From contig JAFZOU010000024.1 of the NCBI GenBank assembly GCA_017550525.1, positions 1 to 60,373 of the forward strand: a DNA stretch of 60,373 nucleotides, in the 5' to 3' direction. How positions within the stretch are numbered: the first letter of the stretch is position 1; the number at the start of each line of letters is the position of its first letter. The position numbers were made by a program, and so were the translations under genes. Under the pieces are notes generated by a model. The model made no database searches and was not told the origin of the DNA. It saw nothing but the letters and a program-made list of their open reading frames with translations. Shown in pieces: positions 2,287 through 9,428 of the stretch. This DNA is from Bacteroidales bacterium. GTDB taxonomy: Bacteria; Bacteroidota; Bacteroidia; Bacteroidales; UBA932.

Positions 2287-3684
2287 ATGAAAAACAAGTA
2301 CATTGACCTTATAGATCAAACCTTCGACTTCCCCCAGGACGAATTCATGGTGGTGGACGGCAATCTGATGTTCAATGACATTGACCTTATGGAAATCATT
2401 GAGAAGTACGGTACTCCCCTCAAGATTACCTATCTTCCCAAGATCTCTTCCCAGATCCAGAGGGCAAAACGCCTTTTCAAGGTGGCTATGGCCAAAGCGG
2501 ATTACCAGGGGCAGTACCACTACAGCTACTGCACCAAGAGCTCCCAGTTTGCCTTTGTGGTTCACGAGGCCCTGAAGAATGATATCCATTTGGAAACTTC
2601 ATCGGCCTATGACCTGGACCTCATGCAGGCTCTGGAGAAGGACGGTTCCGTGGACAAGAGCAAGATCTACGTCATCTGCAACGGTTTCAAGCGCCCCCAG
2701 TACGTGGAAAACATCGCAAAGCTCCGCAAGGACGGCTGGATTAATATCATCCCCGTGCTTGACAACAAGAATGAGTTTGAGGATCTGGCCGATCTTATTG
2801 AGGAGGATACCATGATGGGTATCCGCATCGCCTCCGAGGAAGAGCCCAACTTTGATTTCTATACCTCACGCCTTGGCATCCGCTATTCAGATATAGTGAA
2901 GTTCTACAAGGACACCGTGGCAAAGTATCCCAACTTCCACCTCAAGATGCTGCATTTCTTCATAAACACCGGCATCAGGGATACAGCGTATTACTGGAAT
3001 GAACTGTCAAAGTGCGTCAAGGTGTACTGTGAGCTCAAGGCCATATGCCCTGAGCTTGACAGCCTTAACATTGGTGGCGGCCTTCCAAACAAGACTTCAC
3101 TGGCCCAGGACTTTGACTATGAGTATATGGTGGAGGAAATAATCAACCAGATCAAGGTCACGTGCAATGCTTACGGCGTTCCTGAGCCCGATATCTTCAC
3201 GGAATTCGGCAGCTTTACCGTTGGAGAAAGCGGCGCAACCATCTTCAAGATCCTGGACATCAAGCAGCAGAACGACCGAGAGAAGTGGTACATGATAGAC
3301 AATTCCTTCATGACCTGCCTCCCTGATACCTGGGGTCTTAACCAGCGTTTCATCCTCCTCCCCGTGAACAAGTGGAACGACGAATACCAGAGGGTGTTCC
3401 TTGGCGGTCTCACCTGCGACAGCCAGGATTTCTATAATGCCGATTATCACGCCAACGCAATCTTCCTGCCCACCATCCGCAGTCGCAGGGAAAACCTGTA
3501 CATCGGCTTCTTCCACACGGGTGCATATCAGGAAGCCATTTCCGGCTATGGCGGCATCAAGCACTGCCTCATGCCCTCCCCCAGACACATCCTCATAGAC
3601 CGTGACAAGGAAGGAAACCTGGTCACATCCGTCTTTGCAGAAGAACAGACCGCCGAATCAATGTTAAAAACTCTAGGTTATTGA
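2287..3684 (+). CDS. speA: Arginine decarboxylase (PLP, alanine-racemase fold)
   Basis: Decarboxylates arginine to agmatine, the first step of polyamine synthesis in Bacteroidetes. At 465 residues it is the compact form common in this phylum, not the ~630-residue enterobacterial SpeA. The PLP lysine is expected at Lys84 in YCTKSSQF. Other family marks are HFFINTGIRD, LNIGGG and a C-terminal GGLTCDSQD segment, where the cysteine and aspartate complete the active site in fold-type III enzymes. A deoxyhypusine-synthase homologue elsewhere in the window (53.2 kb) could act on downstream polyamines. The stop codon overlaps the left arm of a palindromic repeat. Confidence 0.9.
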   Translation: MKNKYIDLIDQTFDFPQDEFMVVDGNLMFNDIDLMEIIEKYGTPLKITYLPKISSQIQRAKRLFKVAMAKADYQGQYHYSYCTKSSQFAFVVHEALKNDIHLETSSAYDLDLMQALEKDGSVDKSKIYVICNGFKRPQYVENIAKLRKDGWINIIPVLDNKNEFEDLADLIEEDTMMGIRIASEEEPNFDFYTSRLGIRYSDIVKFYKDTVAKYPNFHLKMLHFFINTGIRDTAYYWNELSKCVKVYCELKAICPELDSLNIGGGLPNKTSLAQDFDYEYMVEEIINQIKVTCNAYGVPEPDIFTEFGSFTVGESGATIFKILDIKQQNDREKWYMIDNSFMTCLPDTWGLNQRFILLPVNKWNDEYQRVFLGGLTCDSQDFYNADYHANAIFLPTIRSRRENLYIGFFHTGAYQEAISGYGGIKHCLMPSPRHILIDRDKEGNLVTSVFAEEQTAESMLKTLGY

Positions 3685-3820
3685 TGATGAAGGGTATATA
3701 TCTCTAAACCCGTGGCCACCCTCGGCCGCGTAAGAGGGAGGGGCCCAAAGTCCGCGCGTAGCGCGGGCGCCTGGGAGGGGTCGCGAAGCGACGGTTTAGA
3801 GATATATACCCTTCATCATC
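3683..3820. repeat. Palindromic multi-hairpin element, copy A
   Basis: A perfect 28-bp inverted repeat (3683-3710 and 3793-3820) encloses an 82-bp GC-rich core. Inside the core are GGCCACCCTC pairing with GAGGGAGGGGCC, a hairpin CCGCGC-GTA-GCGCGG (3752-3766) and a hairpin GTCGC-GAA-GCGAC (3780-3792). The same core, with different but self-complementary hairpins and different arms, occurs inverted in ligA at 9260-9392. It begins inside the speA stop codon and ends 12 bp before the next gene. No transposase is nearby. Confidence 0.9.
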
Positions 3821-3832
3821 TGAAGAATAGCA

Positions 3833-7259: not shown

Positions 7260-7267
7260 TATCTTTG
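7260..7267 (+). promoter_or_regulatory. Bacteroidetes -7 box for ligA
   Basis: TATCTTTG ends 7 bases before the ligA ATG, so the predicted transcript start falls at or next to the start codon (near-leaderless). Confidence 0.55.
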
Positions 7268-7274
7268 TACAATT

Positions 7275-9428
7275 ATGGACTATAGTGAGGCAAAACATAG
7301 GATAGAGGAACTGAAGGCCGTTCTCCTGGAGAACAGCCGCAGGTACTACGTGGAGAACGCGCCCACCATGAGTGACTATGAATATGACTCCCTCATGCAT
7401 GAGCTGGAGGCCCTTGAAACGCAGTTTCCTGAGCTTGTCACGGAAGACTCCCCTGCCCGTCGCGTGGGCTCTGACCTTGAGTCCGGATTCCGTAAATACC
7501 CTCACAAATACCCAATGCTTTCCCTTGGCAACACTTACTCCATTGAGGAGGTTGAAGAATTTGCCGATAGAGTCACAAAGTCCCTTGACAAGCCATTCAC
7601 GTATAGCGTAGAGCTGAAATACGACGGAACTGCCATCTGCCTAACCTATCGTAACGGCGTCCTTTTCCGTGCGCTTACGCGTGGGGACGGCGTAAAGGGA
7701 GACGACGTAACCGCCAACGTACGCCGCATTGCCAATATCCCCCACTCCCTGAAGGGTACGGGCTGGCCCGAGGAATTTGAGATAAGGGGTGAGATCCTTA
7801 TGCCCTATGAGTCCTTTGACCGCCTCAATGAGGAGCGTGAACTTGCGGAGGAACCCCTCTTTGCAAATCCCAGGAATGCCGCAAGCGGGTCCCTGAAGCT
7901 CCAGAACCCGGAGGAAGTCGGCCGCCGCGGCCTATTCTGCGTTCTCTATCACATCCCCGTGGGCCAGGTACAGTATCCCACCCATAACGAAGCTCTCAAC
8001 GCTGCTGCGGAATGGGGCCTTCCCGTAGGTGACAAACGCCAGATATGCTCCAGCATTGAGGAGATAGAGGCTTTCATAGGTAAATGGGATTCTGAGAGAA
8101 AATCCCTCCCCTATGCCACTGACGGCATTGTAATCAAGGTCAACGAGCTTGCGTATCAGGCAGAACTAGGCTATACCGCCAAGAGTCCCCGCTGGGCCGT
8201 GGCCTACAAGTATAAGGCAGAGCAGGCCTGCACGCCGGTCCTGTCCATAGATTATCAGGTGGGCCGTACCGGCGCTGTAACGCCCGTAGCCAACCTTGAG
8301 CCAGTGTTCCTTTCCGGTACAATGGTAAAGCGCGCAACTCTTGTCAACGAGGATCAGATCCGCGCCCTGGACCTTCACGAAGGAGACTGGGTGTACGTTG
8401 AAAAAGGCGGTGAAATCATTCCCAAGATAACGGGCGTAGAAGAGTCAAAGCGTGAACCGGGCGCAAAGGTTCCCGAGTTCCCTTCGGTTTGCCCTGACTG
8501 CGGCACTCCCCTTGTGCGGGTAGAAGGCGAAGCCAAATGGTTCTGCCCCAACCGCAAGGGCTGTCCCACCCAGATTAAGGGCCGATTAGAACACTTTGTA
8601 ACCCGCAAGGCAATGAACATCCTCTGTGGGGAAGCCACCATAGAGCAGCTCTACTCCCTTGGCCTGGCCAAGGTCCCCTCAGACCTATACCGTCTCCGTG
8701 AAATGGACCTTGTGAGGCTTGACGGCTGGAAGGAAAAATCGGCCTCCAGATTTGTCCAGTCAGTAAAGGAATCCCTCTCCGTGCCATTTGAGAGGGTGCT
8801 CTTTGCCATTGGAATCCGCTTTGTGGGAGAAACCACAGCAAGGGATATAGCCCGCCATTTTGGAAGCATAGACGCCGTCATGGCCGCCTCCCGTGATGAA
8901 CTTCTTGAAGTCCCTGAAGTAGGAGATGTCATAGCAGACAGCATAATTGCTTTCTTTGCCGATGAAGACAATATCCGCGAGGTAAATGCCCTAAGAGATG
9001 CCGGTCTCCGTATGTCCGCAGATGTCAAGGAAGCCGCTTCCAATGCCCTTGAAGGCAAAACAATTGTTATAAGCGGTACCTTCTCCATATCCCGTGACGA
9101 TATGAAGGCACTCATTGAAGCCAACGGCGGCAAAAACGGCTCTTCCGTCAGTTCCAAGACCACCTACCTCCTTGCCGGTGAAAAACCCGGCCCTGAAAAG
9201 GTTAAAAAGGCACAGGACCTTGGCGTAGAGATCATTGACGAAGCCTCGTTCATGGAGATGTTGCCCGGAAGGGTAGGCTCTCCTGAATCGTCGGCTTCGC
9301 CGACCCCTCCCACTGCCTCCGGCAGCGGGCCCCTCCCTCTTACCCGGCCGAGGGTGGCCAGGGATTCTGGAGAGCCTACCCTTCCAGGCAACGATGACGG
9401 TGTCTTATTTGAACCAACGCTGTTTTAG
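7275..9428 (+). CDS. ligA: NAD+-dependent DNA ligase with a repeat-derived C-terminal tail
   Basis: Seals nicks in replication and repair using NAD+. Domains in order: Ia region ([15 protein letters not shown]), adenylation domain with nucleophile Lys115 in ELKYDG, OB fold, a four-cysteine zinc finger (CPDCGTPL...CPNRKGC), helix-hairpin-helix repeats and a BRCT domain ending near residue 659 ([11 protein letters not shown]). After this, where LigA normally stops, about 45 extra low-complexity residues (rich in Gly, Pro, Ser, Thr) are encoded by palindromic element B. The catalytic body is intact, so the enzyme is probably functional. First gene of a six-gene operon. Confidence 0.95.
9260..9392. 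repeat. Palindromic multi-hairpin element, copy B, inside ligA
   Basis: Arms of 30 bp (9260-9289 and 9363-9392, 28 of 30 paired) enclose hairpins GTCGGC-TTC-GCCGAC (9290-9304) and CTGCC-TCC-GGCAG (9313-9325), plus the segment 9327-9360. Read on the minus strand, that segment is nearly identical to copy A (TGGCCACCCTCGGCCG, then GTAAGAGGGAGGGGCCC). Hairpin stems differ from copy A but stay paired. The element is read through in the ligA frame. Confidence 0.9.

Follow-up and report, generated by a model that had tools for sequence, protein, structure and literature searches.

Two copies of a palindromic element in the window

The window analyzed here is a 60,373-nt stretch of contig JAFZOU010000024.1 from Bacteroidales bacterium GCA_017550525.1 (2.38 Mb, 91% complete; the own genome below), in which we observe two copies, A and B, of a palindromic element built from three hairpins between complementary arms. 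A preliminary description, made from the letters of the window, had put them forward as a family comparable in behavior to Rickettsia palindromic elements (RPE) or to repetitive extragenic palindromes (REP) with their REP-associated tyrosine transposases (RAYT). Genomes are labeled G and loci L below, and the genomes behind these labels are draft assemblies. The features at the two sites are as follows:

2287-3684, plus strand: Orn/Arg-decarboxylase-family gene upstream of copy A, its stop codon overlapping the first bases of copy A
3683-3820, plus strand: copy A, whole element, between the decarboxylase-family and SpoU-family genes
3683-3710, plus strand: copy A left arm, complementary to 3793-3820 at 28/28 positions
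3711-3730, plus strand: copy A hairpin 1, 7-bp stem with loop ACCCTC (3718-3723); stem and loop covary in divergent copies
3734-3738, plus strand: copy A pseudoknot partner GAGGG, pairing with loop bases CCCTC (3719-3723); six compensated types among 30 parsed copies
3744-3775, plus strand: copy A hairpin 2, CCC...GGG clamp conserved, inner part variable
3780-3792, plus strand: copy A hairpin 3, GTCGC-GAA-GCGAC
3793-3820, plus strand: copy A right arm, complementary to the left arm
3833-4531, plus strand: SpoU-family rRNA methylase gene downstream of copy A
7275-9428, plus strand: ligA, host gene of copy B (Pfam, PDB alignment, frame analysis)
9260-9392, minus strand: copy B, whole element, within the ligA reading frame
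9363-9392, minus strand: copy B left (5') arm, 28/30 complementary to 9260-9289
9343-9362, minus strand: copy B hairpin 1
9335-9339, minus strand: copy B pseudoknot partner GAGGG
9309-9329, minus strand: copy B hairpin 2
9290-9304, minus strand: copy B hairpin 3
9260-9289, minus strand: copy B right (3') arm

Both copies proved real as first described, with complementary arms and a common core of 40 nt that is inverted between them (3707-3746 and 9327-9366, 93% identity). Their folding energies lie far below those of 200 dinucleotide shuffles (z of -9.24 for copy A and -8.70 for copy B), with no shuffle folding as well. The description had passed over three features: the invariant block is itself a hairpin plus a pseudoknot, copy B lies inside the ligA frame, and copy A begins on the stop codon of the upstream gene. 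It had recognized no known family. In the window, every Rfam family stays below its gathering score; at E ≤ 10, copy A gave six matches far under their gathering scores, the best being mir-942 (26.3 bits against 100, E = 0.0024).

A folded, pseudoknotted core between variable arms

From the outside inward, the element consists of an arm of about 27 bp, hairpin 1 (7 bp, loop ACCCTC), TAA, a GAGGG complementary to that loop, AGGGG, hairpin 2 with an invariant CCC/GGG clamp, AGGG, hairpin 3, and the right arm, for a length of about 100 to 180 nt from arm to arm. The core is near-invariant, whereas the arms are complementary within each copy and unlike in sequence between copies. In the 21 full copies of the own genome, the whole-structure covariation was reached by none of 500 shuffles, 20 of 22 arm pairs are changed on both sides, and pairing holds in 95.9% of arm cells, which bears out the statement that arms and stems differ and yet stay self-complementary. 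Fully perfect arms are found in 41 of 150 distinct ones, and the 3,986 arm pairs comprise 3,612 Watson-Crick, 119 G-U, 55 A-C, and 200 other pairs.

The pseudoknot is invariant among the 21 own copies and covaries, as does hairpin 1, in divergent ones. We entered copies A and B together with 31 divergent or distant copies, 33 in all, of which 30 could be parsed, with the loop/partner types CCCTC/GAGGG (14 copies), CCCGT/ACGGG (9), CCCCC/GGGGG (3), CCCGC/GCGGG (2), CCCAC/GTGGG (1), and CCCAT/ATGGG (1), or six compensated types in total. The script scored 5/5 pairs in 27 copies and 3/5 in the three CCCCC/GGGGG copies, which it had mis-anchored and which show 5/5 pairs by eye. Because the pseudoknot and hairpin 1 covary in divergent copies, the core is, on this sequence evidence, constrained as a folded strand. 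Hairpin 1 also has a conserved U-G pair in 15 of the 21 own copies. In three variant copies (L253, L268, and L224), hairpin 1 is separated from the conserved GGGGCCC by an extra segment, and the usual pseudoknot partner is displaced or missing.

Copy number and distribution

A core pattern with at most three mismatches occurs 22 times in the own genome and not once when read backwards. One occurrence is cut by a contig end, and the covariance model was built from the remaining 21; in the own genome it gives 38 hits at E ≤ 1, and 35 of these also pass E ≤ 0.001. The further copies that the preliminary description had called for are thus present in the own genome, and there are many in its relatives. 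Among 61 genomes searched, 31 carry the element, all of them within the 37 genus genomes (own genome included), so that 6 of the 37 are without a detected copy. An order-wide scan of 295 genomes, which used strict filters and 12 scored candidates per genome and therefore gives a lower bound, returned five genomes with a match: the own genome, one of another genus in the same family, and three of other families. A further genus genome, G067, had no match in that scan. In public genomes, an exact-pattern scan found at least 114 stretches, with all of the matches listed being titled Bacteroidales or Bacteroidia and many naming a ruminant host; these records are metagenome-assembled genomes by title or uncultured assemblies.

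Nine copies in G220, which belongs to another family (L258 and L282 to L289), have near-identical arms and, in several cases, common flanks, and the element there seems to be part of a larger repeated unit.

Residence inside protein-coding genes

We observe that 15 of the 21 full own copies lie within Pfam-recognized genes, all of which are open through the element and gain 39 to 47 residues by it, with 8 copies in sense and 7 in antisense to the host gene. The host genes encode RsmH/MraW, a Mur ligase, TilS, an alanine-racemase-N protein, an MFS transporter, two GT2 enzymes, a CYTH protein, RibF (flavokinase/FAD synthetase), Methyltransf_4, an M20 peptidase, an aminotransferase, DAP epimerase, KsgA/RsmA (RrnaAD), and LigA, and many of them are essential in model bacteria. 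The remaining six own copies are found at gene ends or between genes. In alignments with PDB proteins, the homology of KsgA, RsmH, and MurE is interrupted at the insert, and that of LigA ends where copy B begins: similarity to the best match (2owo, 671 amino acids) runs no further than residue 663 of 717, with about residues 662 to 706 coming from the element, so that copy B is predicted to form the C-terminal tail of the ligA product.

When elements were pasted at random, a through-going open reading frame (ORF) arose in 419 of 924 pastes (750 of the 924 places being within an ORF) against 89 of 144 observed, a weak control, since spurious ORFs are common in this DNA. It was therefore replaced by an ORF-independent test that uses the third-position clustering of substitutions between orthologous flanks. 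With 154 elements queried, 110 could be aligned on both sides; 11 were dropped for too few changes and 3 for not being periodic on both sides, leaving 96 with both flanks coding. Codon phase is kept across the element in 74 of the 96 and not in 22 (nominal P = 2e-18 against 1/3, orthologous elements not being independent), and 18 of the 22 phase-breaking elements have no through-frame, many of them with a gene stop a few bases from the arm. The 74 in-phase copies divide into 54 assignable to one strand, 14 open on both strands, and 6 open on neither, and the 54 assigned copies use all five stop-free frames on both strands, with none in the TAA frame, so that five of the six frames are in use.

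This residence in conserved genes, together with the conserved pseudoknotted core, would also fit a group I- or group II-like intron, a bypassed gap, or another intervening sequence that is removed from the mRNA or skipped by ribosomes. Removal would not demand that the frame be kept and open, as it is here, and both orientations occur, which makes such a sequence a highly improbable explanation.

The likeness to RPE drawn in the preliminary description is stronger than that description could know, because 15 of the 21 full own copies sit in frame within genes. RPE are described as 105 to 146 bp long and inserted in frame into conserved genes, and one of the products has been shown to be active (PMC2229807; PMC10969869), and both kinds of element are dispersed palindromic repeats of about 105 to 150 bp found in frame in conserved genes as well as between genes. 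The present copies are palindromes of the 100 to 150 bp typical of RPE and can form a long stem-loop, some reaching about 180 nt. Small mobile repeats are known to create in-frame fusions, RPE being singled out for their frequency (PMC10969869). Several features set the present element apart: RPE encode a conserved peptide (PMC10969869), whereas five frames and both strands are used here; RPE belong to Rickettsiales and the present element to Bacteroidales; and the invariant three-hairpin pseudoknotted core, the arms unlike between copies, and the in-place core flips are its own. We do not class it as an RPE, because the conserved peptide is lacking; the likeness is one of features.

Empty sites, core flips, and subfamily differences at orthologous sites

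The presence or absence of the element varies at orthologous sites, including the empty sites in relatives that had been proposed as a check. The copy A site is empty in G066, while L075 holds an identical element there; at the copy B site, L121 holds an identical element and G065 (L056) an inverted core with related but altered arms and a different hairpin 2. The CYTH site in G066 has only an 18-base palindrome, which is either a deletion scar or the pre-insertion state. Across 153 pairs of occupied orthologous sites, the core has the same orientation in 90 and is inverted in 63, and at flank identities of at least 85% the counts are 20 and 12. The own locus L014 and its sister L213 differ by a pure core flip between near-identical arms, and L140 and L133 give a further example. 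Palindromes may be misassembled in draft assemblies, yet the flips recur across many of them.

We also sought the own sites by their flanks in two whole sister genomes, so that the sites were not chosen by their core; the pattern search had picked up seven of these loci as well. Among 43 such comparisons (some sites against two contigs), a core with no more than 10 mismatches is present in 22, in the same orientation in 18 and inverted in 4. In 21 of these 22 the core shows 0/30 mismatches against 2.58 each expected at the flank rate, and the remaining one (L269) belongs to another subfamily (CCCGT/ACGGG). Outside the 22, three rows hold the CCCCC/GGGGG subfamily (L266, L265, and L160), two are variants with an extra segment (L268 and L224), and all others are empty, remnants, or unrelated sequence. 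With increasing flank divergence, whole-core identity at orthologous sites drops from 0.935 to 0.732, compared with 0.753 for unrelated copies between genomes and 0.798 for paralogues within a genome.

A core that is invariant at orthologous sites, independent of orientation, and present at many sites common to sister species is what one would see if the host maintained a DNA structural element, such as a nucleoid, gyrase, or repair-protein site, that spread long ago and is now mostly inherited. We consider this explanation unlikely, given the presence/absence differences between sister species, the occurrence of other subfamilies at the same site, and the six genus genomes without a detected copy.

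Changes in the arms come in bursts: in 43 close site pairs with alignable arms, 895 positions are unchanged, 159 are changed on both sides and still paired, 67 are changed on one side, and 27 otherwise. This pattern bears on a further alternative, in which selection on a transcribed structured RNA (a trans-acting noncoding RNA or ribozyme) keeps the arms complementary, the copies being a multicopy RNA gene or retro-copies. The covariation of pseudoknot and hairpin 1, the conserved U-G pair of hairpin 1, and the excess of G-U over A-C pairs in the arms would suit such an RNA. Against it, orientation to the host gene is balanced and flips between species, arm changes are mostly two-sided and clustered, and G-U makes up just the 119 of 3,986 arm pairs given above. 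For retro-copying, the reverse transcriptase domain RVT_1 has no match in the own genome or in G016, which is 98% complete and has 35 copies; 12 of 41 genus genomes are positive. Overall, an RNA-level explanation appears rather improbable to us.

Arms that arise as inverted copies of the target were considered as a general rule and rejected, with one suggestive case (L135). Outside the arms, the flanks are not generally complementary: a score of at least 12 was reached in 2 of 154 against 0.5% of shuffled partners (means 5.96 and 5.13), and of the two high-scoring cases L100 contains Ns and the arm called in L148 is short.

Two further sites stand out. On a second G066 contig, the TilS site (L271, G066:C102:1650-2200) is occupied by another kind of insert, which consists of repeated TTGGACCTGGTCCA-type palindromes. 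At L270 (G065:C63:209350-214150), the sister genome has about 4.4 kb between the two flanks of the own L018 site.

Candidate transposases

The second comparison in the preliminary description was with REP/RAYT units, moved by a Y1 (HUH) transposase acting on hairpins. The multi-copy hairpins in bacterial genomes are a point of likeness; REPs are given as 20 to 40 bp (PMC3733652), and the present element is longer and shows no RAYT linkage. Y1_Tnp matches, at most six per genome and mostly in open frames of about 280 to 390 codons, are found in 31 of 41 genus genomes (G000 to G036 and G061 to G064). The own genome has four, and within the genus a match is present in 23 of 25 genomes with at least four copies of the element against 4 of 12 with three or fewer (37 genomes, counted by hand, with no correction for kinship or completeness). 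Closer inspection weighs the other way. Twenty RAYT neighborhoods (112 kb) contain one clear element plus one weak match (E = 0.097). Four element-bearing genomes outside the genus, each 96 to 99% complete, are without a Y1_Tnp match (G168 and G070 given as 0, G220 and G250 not among the listed positives), while 204 of 295 order genomes have one. Within the genus, G001 and G014 carry 9 and 15 copies and no Y1_Tnp, both being incomplete, and G009 and G010 have Y1_Tnp but no copies. A RAYT thus looks unnecessary for the element, and movement by one is very unlikely; of the two comparisons first drawn, the one with RPE held and the one with REP/RAYT, including the suggested link to a RAYT-type transposase, did not.

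Near a Y1_Tnp match in the own genome (L182, contig C111), we observe two related AAAACGTCT palindromes at 2544-2587 and 4239-4282, possibly genuine REPs of a RAYT and unrelated to the element.

No gene-bearing, autonomous version was seen among 163 cores; for all but one of them, 162 in number, a paired arm lies no more than 260 nt away (seven further cores too close to contig ends being excluded).

A non-autonomous mobile element as the preferred reading

Taken together, we favor, at a probability of roughly 60%, the reading that these are short non-autonomous mobile elements in which the part conserved is a folded single strand, closed off by arms of about 27 bp, and that their mode of life is like that of RPE. 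Insertion at new sites would be brought about by a factor that recognizes the folded core as RNA or single-stranded DNA. Copies that break genes would be lost, so that intragenic copies survive where they are translated as a linker some 40 residues long. Through template switching during replication, one inverted arm would be rewritten from the other and the spacer inverted, leaving arms that are unlike at each site yet complementary. Cores might be exchanged at occupied sites, perhaps through ectopic repair after the palindrome is cut or replication stalls, and deletion may remove elements, in some cases with a remnant or an arm-tip palindrome left behind.

Template switching most likely homogenizes the arms and flips the core, since it predicts complementary but different arms as well as flipped cores without an invertase. 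Earlier work describes template switching between inverted repeats as homogenizing arms and inverting spacers, with repeated flips at one yeast site (PMC8604942), and stems as open to maintenance by this process (PMC8794818). Arrival at new sites, invariance of the core, and subfamily exchange are not covered by template switching and need a factor that reads the folded core, which probably exists.

Several observations weigh against this account. Template switching is deduced from the pattern of change, and 17 of 60 close site pairs have unalignable arms, so that arm change could also reflect replacement of the whole element by another copy. Secondary loss may account for many of the empty states in sister species, which often leaves the direction of change unclear, and candidate target-site duplications at the compared sites disagree with each other. 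The excess of G-U over A-C mismatches in the arms hints at strand-specific RNA selection, with 57 of the 119 G-U pairs at four positions. Outside the genus, only 3 of 17 examined copies lie in an open frame, so that the gene-residence habit may be a genus trait. Searches for the mover among Y1_Tnp/RAYT, RVT_1, and a gene-bearing version did not find it.

More tentatively, and as a possibility that we would not yet bet on, the pseudoknotted strand may be recognized by a factor that exchanges and inverts cassettes in pre-existing palindromic docking sites of housekeeping genes, which would make it a new class of mobile element. Proteins such as LigA, TilS, RibF, and the M20 peptidase would then differ between sister species in a peptide of about 40 residues at one and the same position, and a selfish cassette would recurrently rewrite host proteins.

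On the preferred reading of a non-autonomous mobile element, a family whose pseudoknotted core is conserved and covaries is spread through a genus of rumen Bacteroidales. Many of the genomes hold tens of copies, and many copies lie in genes that are essential in model bacteria. The family offers a natural many-site series on how perfect stems stay perfect, by template switching or by compensatory selection, and on how proteins tolerate inserted selfish sequence. Judging from the compared sequences, flips and swaps of the element may give sister species versions of a housekeeping protein that differ over about 40 residues.

Comparison with other repeat families

Miniature inverted-repeat transposable elements (MITEs) are likewise short and non-autonomous, with inverted-repeat ends, and are able to form in-frame gene fusions (PMC10969869). 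The ends of the present element, in contrast, are not conserved between copies, and no parent transposase was found; terminal inverted repeats are not shared, with the exception of the nine G220 copies with near-identical arms, several with shared flanks. Retrons, group II introns, and other reverse transcriptase elements would come with a reverse transcriptase in the genome, and the own genome has no RVT_1 match. The coding palindromes of Nematomorpha mitochondria resemble the element in being long, near-perfect inverted repeats within translated genes, as summarized in PMC6649704, and differ in that their arms encode conserved protein parts, whereas here a dispersed unit is inserted. Titles and abstract openings of open-licence PMC articles yielded no equivalent element in Bacteroidales or Bacteroidetes.

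Separately from the element, to which we noticed no likeness, a 22-nt inverted repeat (7197-7218 and 7253-7274, 82% complementary) lies just upstream of ligA, between this gene and the divergent gene at 5933-7162.

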